Positions 21,613 to 29,735 are shown, counted from the stretch's first letter. The stretch: DNA of 64,000 nt from Thermoplasma acidophilum DSM 1728 (GCF_000195915.1 NC_002578.1:1421644-1485643), one strand, 5' to 3'. Program-made: numbers and translations. The notes: generated from the sequence alone by a model not told the origin.

Positions 21613-22854
21613 ATGGCTGAAAATTTCCAATTGCCTTATCTCTCTCTCCAAAATGAGAAGGTGGACATGGTTTTCGATCTGTTCAATAAGACCATTAGAA
21701 ATGGGGAAAAAGTAACTTTTGCTTTTTCTGGCGGAAAAGATTCTACTACCTTGGCCATTTTGTTCTATGAATGGCTAAAGATCAGACATGACATCGAATG
21801 TACCATCACGCTGTTACATAATGATACTTCAAGTGAAATCGATCCTATGGAAAACTGGGCAAGGAATTTTATGACTTCTTACAAGACCGAGATAGAGGAT
21901 ATTACCGAAGGGAGGGTCAAGATAAATATAGATATAAGAACACCAAAAGTAATCGATACATTTTATTGGAGGATGTTAATAAGAGGATACCCTGCTCCTT
22001 CGTTCAATTTCAGGTGGTGCGTACATTTATTAAAGGAAAAGCCCGCAAATTTAGATTCGATAGAGGAAACAATGTTCACAGGCCTCAGAGAAGCAGAATC
22101 TTCTGAACGCAGAATTCTAATGAGGAAAAAATATGGTAATTCTTGCAGCGCTAGCCCTGGGGGTTGCATGGCATACTATTACTCTACTGAAGGCAAAGGT
22201 AATAAGGTGGCGCCGATGCGGGACTGGACAGATGGGGATGTATGGTCTTTTCTGACGCTATATCGTAATACGGGTGGTATCAACATTTCGCCGATTTTTA
22301 TGCTTTATCCAAATCCAAAGGTTAGGTATGGATGCTGGCATTGCACCCTTGCAAGTGTACAGTGGGGGCTTCAATCTCTTGGTGGAGGCCTAGAATACTT
22401 TGAGGCGGTAAGGATATTGTATAGAAAATTCTCCGACTTGCCCTATCTAAGAATCAAGAAGAATACAGGTTACAGCAAGCTTGGGCCTCTGAATGCTGCT
22501 GGTAGAGCGCTTATGCTGAAGTCAATAGCCCTAGCAGAGGACTTGTCCAACGTAAAGCTCTATGGGTTAGATATTAATTTGCTGGAGGGGAAGTCTATTA
22601 GAGATATTTTATTCAATTTGGATCCAAAGGAAGCTACAGCATTGATAAAGAAATACGATCCTAATATACCAAGGTTCAGATATATTCCAATTGATAAGAT
22701 CAGAAACATTCAAAAATACAAGGAATTGGCTTTGCGTGCTCTGATAGACGTCAAACGGAACTGCGCCAACGATAAAGCATACATTCTGCTAGATACCAAG
22801 CTTGAGAATCCTCTGATCACGCTGTTGAATCGGATAGAGGATCTTCTCTCATAA
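21613..22854 (+). CDS. DndC/PAPS-reductase-like PP-loop ATPase with Fe-S cysteines
   Basis: The 413-residue protein has the PP-loop SGGKDS at residues 39-44, which activates a substrate with ATP in PAPS reductases, thiolation enzymes and DndC. Further features are VIDTFYWRMLIRGYPAP and FNFRWCVHL (Cys137), MFTGLREAES and a cysteine set, Cys179, Cys186, Cys242 and Cys245 (GCWHC), suited to a 4Fe-4S cluster as in DndC/SspD. These enzymes insert sulfur into DNA backbones; other family members have unrelated roles. It lacks a visible cysteine desulfurase or DndD/E partner. It is leaderless, with a TATA box 26 bases upstream. It overlaps the convergent gene 22817-24028 by 38 bases, which binds it physically to the nuclease-helicase cluster. 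Confidence 0.8.
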   Translation: MAENFQLPYLSLQNEKVDMVFDLFNKTIRNGEKVTFAFSGGKDSTTLAILFYEWLKIRHDIECTITLLHNDTSSEIDPMENWARNFMTSYKTEIEDITEGRVKINIDIRTPKVIDTFYWRMLIRGYPAPSFNFRWCVHLLKEKPANLDSIEETMFTGLREAESSERRILMRKKYGNSCSASPGGCMAYYYSTEGKGNKVAPMRDWTDGDVWSFLTLYRNTGGINISPIFMLYPNPKVRYGCWHCTLASVQWGLQSLGGGLEYFEAVRILYRKFSDLPYLRIKKNTGYSKLGPLNAAGRALMLKSIALAEDLSNVKLYGLDINLLEGKSIRDILFNLDPKEATALIKKYDPNIPRFRYIPIDKIRNIQKYKELALRALIDVKRNCANDKAYILLDTKLENPLITLLNRIEDLLS

Positions 22855-24028
22855 GATCATTTATCATCGTTTTTATTGATGTAGGTATAAGTTCCCCCGT
22901 GGGAAGAAATAGCGATTTATTTTTCATAGCTTCATATAGTAGATTCAAAAACCTGATTTTATCTTGGGATTTAAGAAAACTCTCGACGAAAGACTTATTT
23001 TCGCCATTGATGTAAAGGGAGATTAATTTGGAGAAAACCTTGAATTTTACGAATCTCACATGTATACCAAAATCAAGTGACTCGATACTGGCCATGCCAT
23101 ATGATTCTATAGTCTTGTTGGACCAATAGTCAGTGTCTTCTCCGATTACCTCTAATAATTTCAGTTCTATGGATCTTCTTAGTAATCTATCTATTAAAAA
23201 CGGGTTTTCCTTTTTTGACATGGTGCTATAGTGGATGCTGAGCAAATACGGGTTAATAGGTAATACCTCCAATACTATGTTATAATCTGGCTCGATTAAG
23301 TCACCAAAGGTTCTACTAGATACTGATGCCAGCTTAAAAAAGTAAAATTCCTGATCCAGTCTACCCATATAATTAGAGAAATCCTTCTCATTAAAAGCGA
23401 TCGTTATTGGTATTTCCTGCAACTCTTCATTTGAGGTCAGCCTGAAGGTGCTGCAGTTTACCGAATAGAATTTTGGTGGTGACTTTCCGTAATTCCTTGG
23501 GTAAAACGATATATAATTATTCAAAGCCTTAGGCTTGATCATAACAGGAATTAGATTCATGCTTATATTATATCGTTCAGTTGCCGTTCTTGACGATGAG
23601 ATAGGTATATTCATTTCAGACGCTTTTAAGTTAAACCTTATTCTGTTTCCAACCGCAAGCTCAAATGTAGGTCTATAAAGAGAAAGCCAAATATTCCTGA
23701 GGAACTTATATTCGTCTAGGTAAGTCTTGGGAAGATCTATATTCTCTGGGTCACCTCCACTTATATATCGCTGATATCCACGTTCGTGTAAAGTGGTCAT
23801 GAATAATGGATGATCTATGCTGGTCTGTTCCATAATTCTTGTGTATTTATCATTCGAGGCCATCTTCAGAATACCAAATTTTTCGTCCCCTGGTATCAAC
23901 ACCATAAAATATCTATAGGAAACGTTCAGTATCTTAGGACCATATTCCTCAGAAATGCGAAGGACGTGAGAATAAAAATAATCAAAAAAGGGGACCTTGA
24001 TCAGCTCAACTAAGTCTTTTCCATTCAT
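22817..24028 (-). CDS. Unknown 403-residue protein of the nuclease-helicase cluster
   Basis: I do not recognise it. It is a soluble, beta-rich protein with many aromatic residues (FFDYFYSHV near the N-terminus, EFYFFKLASVSSRTFGDL in the middle) and a helical C-terminal third. No catalytic motif is evident and it has only one Cys (in VNCSTFRL). It follows the helicase gene by 30 bases with an SD (aggag) ahead of the ATG at 24028, so it is co-transcribed. A target-recognition, scaffold or substrate-binding role is possible but only by position. Its 3' end overlaps the PP-loop gene on the other strand. Confidence 0.7.
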   Translation of the reverse strand: MNGKDLVELIKVPFFDYFYSHVLRISEEYGPKILNVSYRYFMVLIPGDEKFGILKMASNDKYTRIMEQTSIDHPLFMTTLHERGYQRYISGGDPENIDLPKTYLDEYKFLRNIWLSLYRPTFELAVGNRIRFNLKASEMNIPISSSRTATERYNISMNLIPVMIKPKALNNYISFYPRNYGKSPPKFYSVNCSTFRLTSNEELQEIPITIAFNEKDFSNYMGRLDQEFYFFKLASVSSRTFGDLIEPDYNIVLEVLPINPYLLSIHYSTMSKKENPFLIDRLLRRSIELKLLEVIGEDTDYWSNKTIESYGMASIESLDFGIHVRFVKFKVFSKLISLYINGENKSFVESFLKSQDKIRFLNLLYEAMKNKSLFLPTGELIPTSIKTMINDLMREDPLSDSTA

Positions 24029-24058
24029 CTATAACTCCTATTTTAACCCCATAACATC

Positions 24059-25642
24059 TCAATTATCGTCGAAGACCATGAACACAGCGTCACCCGATGA
24101 ACGCTTGGGGAGATATCTGCTTCCTTGTTTCTCAAACCCCGACTGTTGTAGCAAATGATCGGCAGTGATGCGCAATGGTGAAAACCTTGATAAACCCATA
24201 GATTGGTCTTGCTTTGCGGCCTGAGACGCAAGAATGGAAAGATTTCCGATGATGGCCAACAACATTTTGTGTCTTGATAACTGTACATTTAGCACTTCCG
24301 GCTCATTGAAATAAATGGTGGATGGATCACCCTCATTGTATGTTGATGTGGAGTAATTCTGAGTGTAAGTAGATATGGAATATTCTTTTCCGAGCACTGC
24401 TACAATGTTATCGTCTTCTGCACCCAGAAATGACTGTGTTGTTGAGAACGATATTTGATCCCGAATGCCATATTTTTCCAAAATATATCCATACTTCCGT
24501 CTCATAAGGAGATCCATTTGGATCTGCTGATCAACATAGGTAGTTATCACAGTCGTATGCTTACCCGTACCTGCAGCTAGTGCAATCGCCGTTTCTATGC
24601 CTAATTCTGCCCTTGTTGGATCATACGTAAGGCCATATTTTCTATAATAATTTGAATCATAGCTCTTTTTCTCATTCACTCTTTCATAGAGGATGCATCT
24701 CCCGGTCGAAATTAACTCTTCTACTTTTTCTGTGATTTTTCTCATTTGTTCTTTCTCTGTAGCTAATTCTCTTAACTTGTTAGCCTCATAGTTGCTATGT
24801 AGTATCTGGCTAGCTGACCTATACGCTCTAAGGTCATTATCATAAAAGCCCTTACTTATTGCCTCTTCCGATGGGGATGGCATTCTCAGAGTAACTTCCA
24901 GAAATTCAAAAGAGCTACCTCTTATAGCTGATCTCTTAGCCTCTGCTAACAATTCTCTATCATTTAAATCTCTGCTTGAATGGTTCAACATCGGTGCAAG
25001 TAGGTAACTCATTATCAGCATTCTTCTGGCGCTCCCTTGGTATGGTCCAAGACTGATAGCCTGCATTGGGTCTCCGACTATGCTTATGGACCCATCCAGT
25101 TCATCCTTAGCTAGTTGGTTAGCCAATCCGATAAATGCAGTATGTAATGGAGACTTACTTGCTTCGTCTATCATTACATTGTAGTTGAACCTGTTGTTGC
25201 CTGGGTATAATCTTTGATAGTTGGTCATCAAGACAATTTTTGTCTCCATACTAGGCGGTTCCCTTATAGATCTAATACTTGGGTCCTGATCGAATATCGA
25301 ACCATATACCCTTACCTCGTGAGATATTCTGTCTATTGCCCCTCTTTTGGCGTATTCAGAACCTACCTTTTTGAACATGTCGTAGACTAACTCGTTCGTT
25401 GGTGCGATATATACTATTATATTCCCGTCACCTAGTTTATCAAAGTATCTGGAAAATGCATTTGCATATATCGTGGTTTTACCTGTCCCTGGTGGTCCCT
25501 GCACAATCCCAATTCTTCCATTATCCATATTCTTTGAAATGACATTAATAGCCTTTTTCCAGGAATCGAGTTCAATGTTATTTTTGCCGGATAATGGCTG
25601 GTTTTCTATTTTCTTTATCTCATCAGATAGGTTTACCTTCAT
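24059..25642 (-). CDS. SF1 (UPF1-like) DNA/RNA helicase
   Basis: The product is a 527-residue ATPase with the superfamily 1B motif order: Walker A GPPGTGKTT near residue 50, Ia APTNELVYDMF, motif II VMIDEASKS, motif III SIVGDPMQA, motif V TTQSFLGAEDDNIVAVLG and motif VI VLNVQLSRHK. It is shorter than full UPF1/Dna2 helicases and has no nuclease domain of its own; the nuclease is the preceding gene. The start is taken as the ATG at 25642 (MKVNLSDEIKK); ATG 25654 is also in frame. It overlaps the nuclease 3' end by 20 bases, so the two proteins are translated together and probably act as a complex on DNA. Confidence 0.87.
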   Translation of the reverse strand: MKVNLSDEIKKIENQPLSGKNNIELDSWKKAINVISKNMDNGRIGIVQGPPGTGKTTIYANAFSRYFDKLGDGNIIVYIAPTNELVYDMFKKVGSEYAKRGAIDRISHEVRVYGSIFDQDPSIRSIREPPSMETKIVLMTNYQRLYPGNNRFNYNVMIDEASKSPLHTAFIGLANQLAKDELDGSISIVGDPMQAISLGPYQGSARRMLIMSYLLAPMLNHSSRDLNDRELLAEAKRSAIRGSSFEFLEVTLRMPSPSEEAISKGFYDNDLRAYRSASQILHSNYEANKLRELATEKEQMRKITEKVEELISTGRCILYERVNEKKSYDSNYYRKYGLTYDPTRAELGIETAIALAAGTGKHTTVITTYVDQQIQMDLLMRRKYGYILEKYGIRDQISFSTTQSFLGAEDDNIVAVLGKEYSISTYTQNYSTSTYNEGDPSTIYFNEPEVLNVQLSRHKMLLAIIGNLSILASQAAKQDQSMGLSRFSPLRITADHLLQQSGFEKQGSRYLPKRSSGDAVFMVFDDN

Positions 25643-27548
25643 CTTTCTTCGCACTCCTTTTGACCAAACTTGCTAGGGTCTCCAAAAGGCCTTCAGACTC
25701 TGCATACTCTATCCCTTCTTTCTCAATCTCCTTTCCTTCTGATTCTATCAATTGTTCTTCCGTTTTGCTTTCCTTTTCCAATTCGTCTTTATTCAATTTC
25801 AGTTCACCTTCGTTTTCCCTTTTCTTCAAAGTTCTTTGCAGTTCGTTAATACTATTGAGCTCCATTTGAGTCAGATCGACTCCAACCTCGAACATGAGGA
25901 TATTAGTTGGTTTCTTGACATTGAGATACGACATGAATATTATCATTTGGAAATCGAGTATCGTGGAAGGAATGCGGATATCATACTCTATCTGGTCCTC
26001 TGAGGAATCAACCTCAAAAATTATGCCGAACATGGATATGGAGAGGAGTGGATTCCATGAGTCCATAATAGTCAAAAGAACCGTCCTACCAGATGGCACT
26101 ACGAAGCTTATTTTGTTGTCCTTTTCAAAATTCCTTAGCTTTCTGATTCCTCTAAGTTGTAGGCTACGAGAATCTGGAATTTCTAATTTATCCAGTAATT
26201 CTACTCTTGACTTCTCGTAATTCTTGATCTGTATCAGCGGGGCGTCGTTTATTTTCGTCGGGAAATCTCCTGGGGAGTACAAGAACCCTCTACCTTTACG
26301 AAAATGGGTCATCGCATCCTCCTCATAAGAGGAATTTCTGTACAATTTGAATATGTCATATATTGCTCTGTATACGGAGAGTGACCTTTCTTTGTTCTCG
26401 AAGACCTTAAATCGCAATAGCCACATATCACGTTCTACATCATCCTGTTCATACAGGGGTCTCCCAAAGTAAAACTTACATGGTTCCATGAGATTGCAGA
26501 ATGAGTTGCCATTCTTTGTTCTGCAAGGCCATTTTTCCTGTTTAGATGGGCTTCCTTTGAATAGCTGGTCGGGCGTCAACCTTAACATATTCACTTTGTA
26601 ATGCTTTCCTCCCCAGCTCATATCGGTATAGCAGAGTTTATTGTTACCACCACCAAAACTTCTTGTATCGGAAACCAATAAGGTGAGATGCTCCGCTTCT
26701 AAGATGACATCGTCAACGAGATAAGAGAAATCCCTATAAGATTCTTCTGAGAAATCATCTGCCAAGAACGGATGCGGTCCTAATGATGCCTTGATATTGG
26801 CTTTAATGACAACTGGTATAACATCGATATTACGAGATATCCTATCACCTAAGACTGCTGCCTTACGATCATTTAATCCCAATCTTGAAGCCTCTAATAA
26901 TGAGTAGGCTATGGCCTGGGCCTCTTCGTATTTCATTTCATTCTGTCCATATGTTTTCCACTCGACGACAATTGCTTTCTTCTTTTCCATAGACTCAAGT
27001 ATTAGATCGGGTATTCCACGCATATGGAGGTCATAATCTATAAGCTGCTGCTCTACAATTGGGTAAATTTCTTCCTTATCAACACCAAGAAGTCTGCATA
27101 TTCTGTCAAGATTAGATATAAGGCTATTCAGCAGAAAGACTGCAAGATCCTGTACGCCCTCTCTACTTTCTTTAAAGCTTTTGTCATTTTCGAAGAGTTC
27201 TTGATTTTCGCTCACTACTTCTTTCACCGTATTTCGGATCGTTTCTTCATTAGGAGATCCAGGCAATAACTTTAAAGCCGAAAGCCCAAGAATTTTATGG
27301 ATTGTTTTTCCCTTTCCGCTATAGTGGTCAATAGAATAATCGAAAAATCTCCTTATGCCTATTGCCTCAGATAGCCTCGCATAATAAGCACAGTATCCTG
27401 CACCTCTTGCAATATTGGTGACGGTGGGTATATGGCCAGTACGGTTTAAGGTATCCTCAGCCATCTTGACGCATCCATAAGATCCTCCAGGCATCTTTGA
27501 TTTGATAAATTCCGTAATGCTACTATAGCTCTTTGTTCTCTCATACAT
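25623..27548 (-). CDS. Cas4/AddB-like PD-(D/E)XK nuclease with Fe-S cluster
   Basis: The product has 641 residues. The N-terminal half is a RecB-type nuclease: Cys53 (GAGYCAYYARL), His84 (GKTIHKIL), then Asp181 in GIPDLIL, Glu196 and Lys198 in VVEWKT, and the QxxxY helix Gln211-Tyr215. Cys342, Cys351 and Cys357 complete a Cys53-led 4Fe-4S site like those of Cas4 and AddB (the last pair has the usual C-x5-C spacing). The C-terminal half is unfamiliar and ends in a long Glu/Lys-rich coiled-coil-like tail (about 560-640). gaggtg eight bases before the ATG is a strong SD. It would cut or resect DNA, driven by the SF1 helicase next door. Confidence 0.85.
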   Translation of the reverse strand: MYERTKSYSSITEFIKSKMPGGSYGCVKMAEDTLNRTGHIPTVTNIARGAGYCAYYARLSEAIGIRRFFDYSIDHYSGKGKTIHKILGLSALKLLPGSPNEETIRNTVKEVVSENQELFENDKSFKESREGVQDLAVFLLNSLISNLDRICRLLGVDKEEIYPIVEQQLIDYDLHMRGIPDLILESMEKKKAIVVEWKTYGQNEMKYEEAQAIAYSLLEASRLGLNDRKAAVLGDRISRNIDVIPVVIKANIKASLGPHPFLADDFSEESYRDFSYLVDDVILEAEHLTLLVSDTRSFGGGNNKLCYTDMSWGGKHYKVNMLRLTPDQLFKGSPSKQEKWPCRTKNGNSFCNLMEPCKFYFGRPLYEQDDVERDMWLLRFKVFENKERSLSVYRAIYDIFKLYRNSSYEEDAMTHFRKGRGFLYSPGDFPTKINDAPLIQIKNYEKSRVELLDKLEIPDSRSLQLRGIRKLRNFEKDNKISFVVPSGRTVLLTIMDSWNPLLSISMFGIIFEVDSSEDQIEYDIRIPSTILDFQMIIFMSYLNVKKPTNILMFEVGVDLTQMELNSINELQRTLKKRENEGELKLNKDELEKESKTEEQLIESEGKEIEKEGIEYAESEGLLETLASLVKRSAKKDEGKPI

Positions 27549-27638
27549 TCTGATCGCACCTCAAATAAGAAAGGGGAAGTTTATCCGAAGCCTTTGAAAA
27601 ACCGACGTAGCTTTCGCTCTTTTCTTCAGGCCTAAATT

Positions 27639-27806
27639 TTATTCCCATTCGACCCTCACCCTCAGTTTCTTTGACTCCTTAGATCTCAATACAGATTTCT
27701 GAGCATATAGGGTATCTATTACAGTCGAGCCAGTATTATTCTCCTGAAATCTGTTTGTATTCTTCGTTTCCCTCTTAAGCTCAAACTCTATCTCTTTTTT
27801 CTCCAT
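27639..27806 (-). CDS. Small conserved-looking charged protein, 55 residues
   Basis: From the ATG at 27806 the product is MEKKEIEFELKR... followed by a TKNTNRFQE stretch, STVIDTLYAQKSVLRS in the middle and a basic beta-like end (KKLRVRVEWE). The pattern E-x-ETK-NT-R-x-QE ... GT-x-D-TLY-QKS recalls a small hypothetical family seen widely in archaea and bacteria; I know of no function. It precedes the nuclease by 90 bases on the same strand. Upstream in-frame ATGs (27863, 27947) exist but would add a basic leader overlapping the membrane-protein gene. Confidence 0.6.
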   Translation of the reverse strand: MEKKEIEFELKRETKNTNRFQENNTGSTVIDTLYAQKSVLRSKESKKLRVRVEWE

Positions 27807-27898
27807 TTTACATCGCCTTATTATATCGCAAAGTGCGCGTCTATACCATTCTCGCTTACGCATTTTTATTTTTTTCAATTGCATAAGAATTCCACATC

Positions 27899-28279
27899 TC
27901 AATGCCAATTTATCACCTCCATATTTTTTATGAATAAAAAAGCGCAAACAGGCACAGAAAAAATATCGAAAACTATGTTTATAATAGAAAATATCTCAGA
28001 CTCATAGAGATGTAATTTGATAACAGTTAGTGCAGCTCCTGTGAAGGATGAAGCTATACCAAGAGGGTAGTAGATCCTAACGTATTTCGCAAGACCTATA
28101 CTTAATACAGAGTATGTGGTTTCAAATATACCTCTGGCAATCAGAATTGGTGATGTGATTTTCAGTACGAATGACCACAGATAATGTATATAGGCTACTG
28201 TTCCTATTACAGCTAAAGCAGCAACTTCAAGATCTCTTTTGGATATTTTTATGTCTGATGCAATAGCATTAGCTTTCAT
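27899..28279 (-). CDS. Four-helix membrane protein, unknown
   Basis: The 126-residue product has four predicted membrane segments: roughly residues 18-38 (LEVAALAVIGTVAYIHYLW), 44-64, 72-90 (IYYPLGIASSFTGAALTV) and 97-118. The N-terminus is short and cytoplasmic in character. No family is recognised. It starts 10 bases after the stop of the winged-helix regulator gene with gagg ahead of the ATG, so the two are one transcription unit. A pairing of a regulator carrying a zinc ribbon with a membrane protein could be a sensor couple or part of the defence-like module behind it. Confidence 0.65.
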   Translation of the reverse strand: MKANAIASDIKISKRDLEVAALAVIGTVAYIHYLWSFVLKITSPILIARGIFETTYSVLSIGLAKYVRIYYPLGIASSFTGAALTVIKLHLYESEIFSIINIVFDIFSVPVCAFLFIKNMEVINWH

Positions 28280-28289
28280 ATTTGCCTCT

Positions 28290-28931
28290 TCATTCTAATT
28301 TTGTCCCACAATTCGTGCAGAATTTTCCTTCCTCTGCATTTTCATATCCGCAAATATGACATATTTTAACCTTCCCTTTATAATGCATCATCATCTTCTG
28401 GACCTCCGGATACGTCCACGCCGCTTTGACGTGCCAGCAGTCATAGGAATTGTCCTGCTCACACCAGAGAAGAAATTCGCCATTTCCGTTCCTCTTGATG
28501 TAAATGTTGAAAAACCTAGGCGATTTTCCTGAAATCTCTTCGGTGATATGATCATCCATGATGTTTATATGGAGAAGGAATGACCACTCCCTGATTCTTT
28601 CTGCTTCCTCGTTGGCCAGTAATAGTTCTATCTTCTCTACCGATTCTTCAATCTCAGCTGAAGGCTTTTGTGCAATTTCCTCAGCTTTCTTTAGTTGTTC
28701 TGCGACGAGGCGACCTTTAGGTGTTAATGAAAAAGAGTAAGATTTGCGTCCGGTAAATTCTCTTTTTATATTGATTAAGCCGGCTTCTTCCAGAATTTTA
28801 CTGAGCTTTTCGATAGTCATATTGCTAGATATGATTTTCAATAGCTCAAACTGTTTAACATTACCTCTATCTAGCAGAAAAAATAGCATTGAAATTGCAT
28901 ATTTCTGACTTAATGGATCTTGAGTATCCAT
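28290..28931 (-). CDS. Winged-helix regulator with C-terminal zinc ribbon
   Basis: The product has 213 residues. Residues about 8-85 form a winged helix (KQFELLKIISSNMTIEKLS, then the wing LINIKREFTGRKSYSFSLTPKG, as in archaeal PadR/MarR-like proteins). A coiled-coil linker follows, then a beta-rich domain with HINIMDDHITEE, and the C-terminus is a zinc ribbon with Cys191, Cys194, Cys205, Cys208. It is leaderless, with TATA-like gaatttaag 26 bases upstream. Two palindromic sites at 28981-29040 sit 50 and 92 bases upstream and are probable binding sites for this protein itself. It heads the minus-strand run into the nuclease-helicase genes. Confidence 0.75.
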   Translation of the reverse strand: MDTQDPLSQKYAISMLFFLLDRGNVKQFELLKIISSNMTIEKLSKILEEAGLINIKREFTGRKSYSFSLTPKGRLVAEQLKKAEEIAQKPSAEIEESVEKIELLLANEEAERIREWSFLLHINIMDDHITEEISGKSPRFFNIYIKRNGNGEFLLWCEQDNSYDCWHVKAAWTYPEVQKMMMHYKGKVKICHICGYENAEEGKFCTNCGTKLE

Positions 28932-29663: not shown

Positions 29664-29735
29664 TGGACCGGAGGGGATTTGAACCCCTGGCCTCTTCCAT
29701 GCCAAGGAAGCGATCTACCTCTGATCTACCGGCCC
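29664..29735 (-). tRNA. tRNA-Ala (anticodon GGC)
   Basis: On the minus strand a 72-base cloverleaf folds. The acceptor stem GGGCCGG pairs with CCGGTCC, including G3-U70, the alanine identity pair. The anticodon stem CTTCC/GGAAG encloses the loop TTGGCAT (anticodon GGC), and the T arm contains GGTTCAAATCC. The discriminator is A. CCA is not encoded and no intron is present. Confidence 0.95.

Follow-up and report, generated by a model that had tools for sequence, protein, structure and literature searches.

A DndC-like PP-loop ATPase is linked to a PD-(D/E)XK nuclease and a superfamily 1 (SF1) helicase in the archaeon Thermoplasma acidophilum DSM 1728, and this trio recurs in archaea of a second phylum. 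The window, i.e. the whole stretch of DNA analysed, comprises 64,000 nucleotides (GCF_000195915.1 NC_002578.1:1421644-1485643) of a genome assembled as one contig of 1,564,906 bases, and the module region spans positions 21613-28931. In five other genomes the nuclease-helicase pair stands beside a methylase module. On balance we regard the T. acidophilum module as a restriction-modification-like defence system in which the PP-loop protein would mark self and the nuclease-helicase pair would restrict. The mark would probably be DNA phosphorothioation. The three core genes are as follows (lengths in amino acids, aa):

21613..22854, plus strand: DndC-like PP-loop ATPase, putative modification enzyme; 413 aa; SGGKDS, FRWCV and RYGCWHCT; PF01507 above cut-off
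24059..25654, minus strand: SF1 helicase of the Upf1/Sen1/SMUBP-2 class; 531 aa; GTG start
25623..27548, minus strand: PD-(D/E)XK (RecB/AddB/Cas4-like) nuclease; 641 aa; C53, C342, C351 and C357; PDDEXK_1 above cut-off

Results and discussion

Conservation of the trio

A preliminary description of this DNA had proposed seven genes. All seven open reading frames (ORFs) were found at their coordinates, including a 38-base overlap of the PP-loop ORF with a convergent ORF for a 403-aa protein; the nuclease and helicase ORFs overlap by 32 bases. The proposed domains were also recovered: PAPS_reduct above cut-off with DndC as the best specialised model, AAA_19, ResIII and AAA_12 in the helicase, PDDEXK_1 in the nuclease and, below threshold, zinc ribbon and helix-turn-helix (HTH) matches in a regulator.

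Among 101 genomes of the order the nuclease was found in two, the window genome and a metagenome-assembled genome (G068, JAKATN010000015.1; locus L010). There, genes for a winged-helix protein, the nuclease, the helicase and a 392-aa protein are followed by a convergent PP-loop gene. Compared with the window proteins, the PP-loop protein of this locus is 67% identical, the regulator 45%, the helicase 42%, the nuclease 40% and the 403/392-aa protein about 20%. When genome contigs of bacteria and archaea were scanned, nuclease, helicase and a convergent PP-loop gene were retrieved from Candidatus Wolframiiraptor sinensis, a member of another phylum; bacteria were covered by one such scan using two short patterns, plus plasmids and phages. 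In total, matches were present in 2 of 390 Thermoplasmatota genomes and in 11 of 398 genomes of the Wolframiiraptor phylum, and in all matching neighbourhoods nuclease and helicase are side by side. G444 (Wolframiiraptor), G630, G689, G510, G715 and G452 have a PP-loop gene of the same family next to the pair; the arrangement is convergent, divergent or co-directional. In G616 and G479 the PP-loop gene has the helicase gene as a neighbour, together with a nuclease gene that has diverged further. Ten archaeal genomes from two phyla thus carry the full trio, in shuffled orientations. A chance neighbourhood, to be expected according to the preliminary description if the homologues never co-occurred, was rejected because the gene-neighbourhood search found the trio in nine genomes besides that of T. 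acidophilum. The genes also diverged together: the distance correlation was r=0.96 for nuclease and helicase (p 1e-4) and 0.78 for helicase and PP-loop protein (p 2e-4).

The seven genes do not all recur elsewhere. The trio does; the 55-aa and 126-aa genes had no counterpart in any other locus compared, and the 403-aa gene has one weak relative. What is conserved is therefore less than the seven genes first read.

Exchange with methylase modules

In five Thermoproteota genomes (G489, G600, G465, G653, G793; loci L066-L070) the nuclease-helicase pair is present and no PP-loop gene is nearby. The neighbours of the pair are a large DUF1156 methylase and a DUF499 ATPase, which match HmaB and HmaC, respectively, and a smaller protein resembling methylases. 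The HmaB and HmaC names derive from Pfam and PADLOC scans of the L069 proteins and of one L066 protein and were extended to the remainder by similarity. DUF1156 methylases and DUF499 ATPases are components of Hma or DUF499-centred BREX-related systems (PMC8565338, PMC12839542). When the long-branch G452 was omitted, PP-loop-type and methylase-type pairs separated on the nuclease tree (96/97) and on the helicase tree (87/96); a helicase tree including G452, G616 and G479 requires two changes. Because these five loci combine the pair with a methylase module and lack a PP-loop gene, the pair appears to be a portable effector arm, separable from a modification enzyme whose chemistry can be exchanged, and the PP-loop protein appears to occupy the slot of a DNA-modifying enzyme. 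It is mainly this swap on which we base the reading of the PP-loop protein as a modification enzyme. A published precedent is BREX type 4, where an enzyme of the PAPS-reductase family replaces the methylase (PMC12839542).

The PP-loop protein

The best specialised models of the PP-loop protein were those of DndC, i.e. 81 bits with the PADLOC model and 75 bits with TIGR03183, far under its cut-off of 290, and both were ahead of BrxP and SspD. DndC models likewise scored highest, above BrxP and SspD, for all eight relatives scanned, and the motifs SGGKDS, FRWC and GCWxC are common to the family and DndC. In the tree, one branch (100/98) sets apart 11 relatives, the trio-linked ones and a fused one, and a second branch (100/98) does so for the sampled DndC proteins. 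The trio-linked clade adjoins canonical DndC yet is apart from it, and it is also apart from phage homologues. Given the separate clade and the low TIGR03183 score, an assignment as DndC orthologue was rejected. E. coli CysH and CysD are separated from the clade as well (98/98). The PP-loop protein clusters with neither, so identity with the assimilatory PAPS reductase or CysD was discarded, and with it the reservation in the preliminary description that the protein might fall firmly inside the assimilatory clade.

The nearest relatives in a profile search against the PDB were FAD synthase and CysD. Together with the distinct clade and with two S-adenosylmethionine (SAM) methyltransferases beside the PP-loop gene in crenarchaeal loci, this would suit an enzyme that makes another modification, such as a thiolated or adenylylated base or nucleotide, or that acts on nucleotides, with restriction still left to the nuclease-helicase pair. 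The uniform preference for DndC models and the retained cysteine motifs FRWC and GCWxC speak against this, and we rate it as rather unlikely.

Further PP-loop genes were seen outside the trio. Queries with the 403-aa protein, nuclease and helicase had no matches in viral contigs, and the PP-loop query had four weak matches only. Four phage loci (L082:1710-2669, L084:1031-4170, L090:2968-4883, L091:2950-5879) contain PAPS-reductase genes related to DndC. In three of these loci the neighbours are DNA methyltransferase genes, which may make them viral modification or counter-defence pairs. In a Thermoplasmatales genome (L011:3984-10894) a more distant PP-loop gene converges on a 622-aa ATPase-like gene; a 589-aa gene read by eye as SIR2-like and a winged-helix gene similar to the window regulator (E 2.7e-8) are also there.

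The nuclease-helicase pair

Residues H84, D181, E/D196, K198, Q211 and Y215 and cysteines C53, C342, C351 and C357 of the nuclease are kept in 15 of 15 relatives. These are the H, D, E/D-x-K and QxxxY motifs of RecB/AddB/Cas4-type nucleases with one N-terminal and three C-terminal cysteines, the arrangement of AddB, Cas4 and Dna2. The four-cysteine set suggests an iron-sulfur (Fe-S) type nuclease with a predicted cluster. The AlphaFold2 model of the nuclease (pLDDT 40) was too poor for interpretation, and the nuclease query had no match in plasmids. In the helicase, GPPGTGKT, DEAS, GDPxQAI and NVQLSRH are conserved across 12 relatives. It passes several SF1/SF2 P-loop models, and its profile retrieves Upf1, Sen1 and SMUBP-2 from the PDB; SF1 motifs and profile similarity both place it in the SF1 Upf1/Dna2 class. 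With the nuclease motifs and cysteines kept and the helicase profile leading to Upf1, Sen1 and SMUBP-2, the pair looks like a Dna2-type machine split between two genes. When a helicase accompanies a RecB-like Fe-S nuclease, DNA is usually degraded, as in AddAB, RecBCD and Dna2.

This family resemblance, and the membership of the PP-loop protein in the PAPS-reductase superfamily, could mean that the pair is a DNA-end repair module similar to Dna2 or AddAB with an unrelated neighbour from sulfur metabolism. Conserved linkage largely refutes this: in ten genomes, which belong to two phyla, the genes are adjacent, and their orientation is shuffled. Moreover, their occurrence is patchy, the PP-loop gene is swapped with defence methylases, and its product is far from CysH and CysD. 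We consider a repair function improbable.

A more serious contender, though still unlikely, is that the trio itself is the modification machine, comparable to DndCDE or SspBCD. The helicase would open DNA, the nuclease nick it and the PP-loop protein insert sulfur, and other genes would restrict, e.g. the HNH gene of L010. Known phosphorothioation systems supply DndC or SspD with two partners, an ATPase and a protein that scans DNA (PMC10853773); none is encoded here. Two minimal loci, L014 and L062, hold the trio alone, and in L010 a gene for an HNH_2 endonuclease (L010:11433-12209) directly follows the PP-loop gene. Against this stand the five complete methylase loci that contain the pair in the absence of a PP-loop gene, where nicking for sulfur insertion is purposeless, and the usual degradative role of such nuclease-helicase pairs. 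In a Rhizobium phaseoli plasmid record (L093), dndC likewise has an HNH gene as its neighbour.

Comparison with known systems

DndA, DndD, DndE, SspB, SspC, PglZ and BrxC were not found in the locus, and the window genes had no such PADLOC matches; Ssp, BREX, Hma and CRISPR components were likewise absent from the window locus. By ORF content, no DndD- or DndE-type genes were seen in the trio loci. A scan of the genome with PF08870 (DndE) gave no match, but the controls were unmatched too.

With Dnd (DndABCDE) the module shares the DndC-like PP-loop protein with its SGGKDS, FRWC and GCWxC motifs and a mobile, defence-like occurrence. It differs by the separate PP-loop clade, the lack of DndA, DndB, DndD and DndE at the locus and the Fe-S nuclease and SF1 helicase as partners. 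The DndCDEA-PbeABCD system (PMC6459918) is also archaeal, based on DndC and equipped with a separate restriction arm; the window locus lacks DndD, DndE and DndA, and the PbeA model matches a stretch of the helicase weakly (E 0.003). In Ssp and BREX type 4, too, the modification role is held by a PAPS-reductase-family enzyme; however, the SspD and BrxP scores of the window protein are far under DndC, and SspB, SspC, PglZ, BrxL and BrxC are missing from the locus. Hma and DUF499-centred BREX-related systems (PMC8565338, PMC12839542) are connected through the five Thermoproteota loci, in which the nuclease-helicase family occurs with HmaB and HmaC relatives. The window, in contrast, has a DndC-like enzyme and neither the DUF499 ATPase nor the DUF1156 methylase, and L066-L070 showed no HmaA helicase, which usually belongs to such systems. 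Dna2, AddAB and UvrD-Cas4 fusions (PMC5704561) similarly unite a Fe-S RecB/Cas4-type nuclease with an SF1 helicase, and UvrD-Cas4 fusions adjoin type III restriction-modification and Dcm genes (PMC5704561). Here, two genes are used, the helicase is of the Upf1/Sen1 class and not UvrD, and a DndC-like gene is linked. Given these absences, we file the module under none of the Dnd, Ssp, BREX, Hma and CRISPR families; it may work by Dnd- or BREX-4-type marking with Dna2-like restriction. A literature search, which covered few subscription journals, found no earlier description.

Several observations weigh against a sulfur-marking defence system. The locus lacks a desulfurase, DndD and DndE. No IscS/DndA-type desulfurase was recognised in the genome: since its class-V aminotransferase (PF00266) matches were read by eye as other enzymes (aminotransferase-like, GcvPB, SelA-like, AspC-like), such a sulfur donor seems to be missing. 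Nuclease and PP-loop protein co-diverge less closely (r 0.43, p 0.04, with G452 left out). A reverse search with the PP-loop profile gave four further strong members, G616, G479, G842 and G524, and two of them depart from the pattern. G842 (L127) is a decayed remnant with broken PP-loop and methyltransferase genes. In G524 (L125:2232-11895) the PP-loop domain is the C-terminus of a 1122-aa fusion beside a family-less 2091-aa protein, and no pair was seen on the short contig; possibly this is another architecture of the system.

The preliminary description had proposed a defence module, unlike Dnd, Ssp, BREX or CRISPR, that pairs a DndC-like modifier with a nuclease-helicase. Linkage, the monophyletic PP-loop clade, the methylase swap and the patchy, island-like occurrence uphold the pairing, but they do not extend to sulfur in the backbone, degradation of unmarked DNA or the unity of seven genes.

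Genomic setting

Four other Thermoplasma genomes are without the module, yet in all of them the pair of tRNA-Ala(ggc) and esterase genes to its right is conserved. The GC content is 0.39 in the module and 0.48 in the flanks. A direct repeat of the tRNA end as an attachment site was not found in the window. A patchy, low-GC, tRNA-adjacent module fits horizontal acquisition at the tRNA. Window positions 10501-31000 contain low-GC stretches (0.34-0.43) with mobile-looking metabolic genes beside the module (enolase superfamily, GntR, altronate dehydratase-like, transporter), and part of this stretch occurs elsewhere in two sister genomes.

The island location, a linked regulator and a toxin-antidote logic would also agree with an addiction or abortive-infection cassette, in which the nuclease-helicase is a self-destructive effector restrained by a PP-loop product. 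The helicase-nuclease architecture and the exchange with methylase modules better suit marking and restriction, and we attach very little probability to such a cassette.

Accessory genes

The remaining features of the region are:

22817..24028, minus strand: 403-aa protein, fold unassigned; no family or PDB match
27639..27806, minus strand: 55-aa ORF; no relatives found; core membership doubtful
27899..28279, minus strand: 126-aa hydrophobic (transmembrane) protein; no family above cut-off; core membership doubtful
28290..28931, minus strand: winged-helix regulator with C-terminal zinc ribbon; zinc ribbon and HTH matches sub-threshold
29664..29735, minus strand: tRNA-Ala(ggc), candidate integration site; 3' end directed toward the module

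The 392-aa protein of L010, the positional counterpart of the 403-aa protein (z about 4), was the best among 54 ORFs of similar length. A profile search with the 403/392-aa pair, of the kind that the preliminary description had called for, gave no PDB match; the AlphaFold2 model of the 403-aa protein (pLDDT 35) was too poor for interpretation. Homology to the c8 family of Thermoproteota loci, hinted at by local scores, was unsupported in global alignment. A relation of the c5 ATPase to DUF499 was unsupported as well. The relative of the regulator in L010 is without the zinc ribbon. Accessory genes vary by lineage: Thermoplasmatales have the 403-aa protein, and some Thermoproteota have an ATPase of the AAA type, a further unknown protein and two SAM methyltransferases. 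They would be the likeliest source of specificity, and the 403-aa protein possibly is a specificity or partner subunit.

Tandem SAM methyltransferase genes (about 400 and 180 aa) adjoin the PP-loop gene in five Thermoproteota loci (L064:6019-7669, L065:5961-7755, L124:7091-8805, L126:9657-11424, L127:6533-8236), and in L127 they are broken along with it. Could they methylate the sulfur mark? Between regulator and nuclease, L010:2736-4852 encodes a 372-aa protein and a convergent radical SAM protein. The former, which has no Pfam match, presumably resembles TcmP, the three-Cys-motif partner.

Proposed function

In the defence system which we favour, the DndC-like enzyme would activate its substrate with ATP and transfer sulfur, most likely yielding a phosphorothioate in the DNA backbone. 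This sulfur mark would label the cell's own DNA. Fe-S nuclease and SF1 helicase, acting jointly like a split Dna2 or AddAB, would unwind and degrade unmarked DNA. The 403-aa protein, elsewhere replaced by the AAA ATPase and another unknown protein, may confer sequence specificity or couple the two halves, and the winged-helix protein may serve as regulator.

To date DndD-DndE are held to be the obligate core of Dnd modification (PMC10853773). We see an even chance that the loci form an undescribed archaeal immune family that joins one Dna2-like restriction machine to interchangeable marking, either DndC-like sulfur or methylation, and in which sulfur is introduced without DndD/DndE or a desulfurase, possibly from free sulfide. 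A DndC relative working with a nuclease-helicase pair would be evidence that sulfur marking can rest on another scaffold. How modular these systems are is seen from the exchange of sulfur-type and methyl-type enzymes around one restriction pair. As the locus apparently belongs to the reference genome of a cultured thermoacidophile, phosphorothioation would be directly testable.

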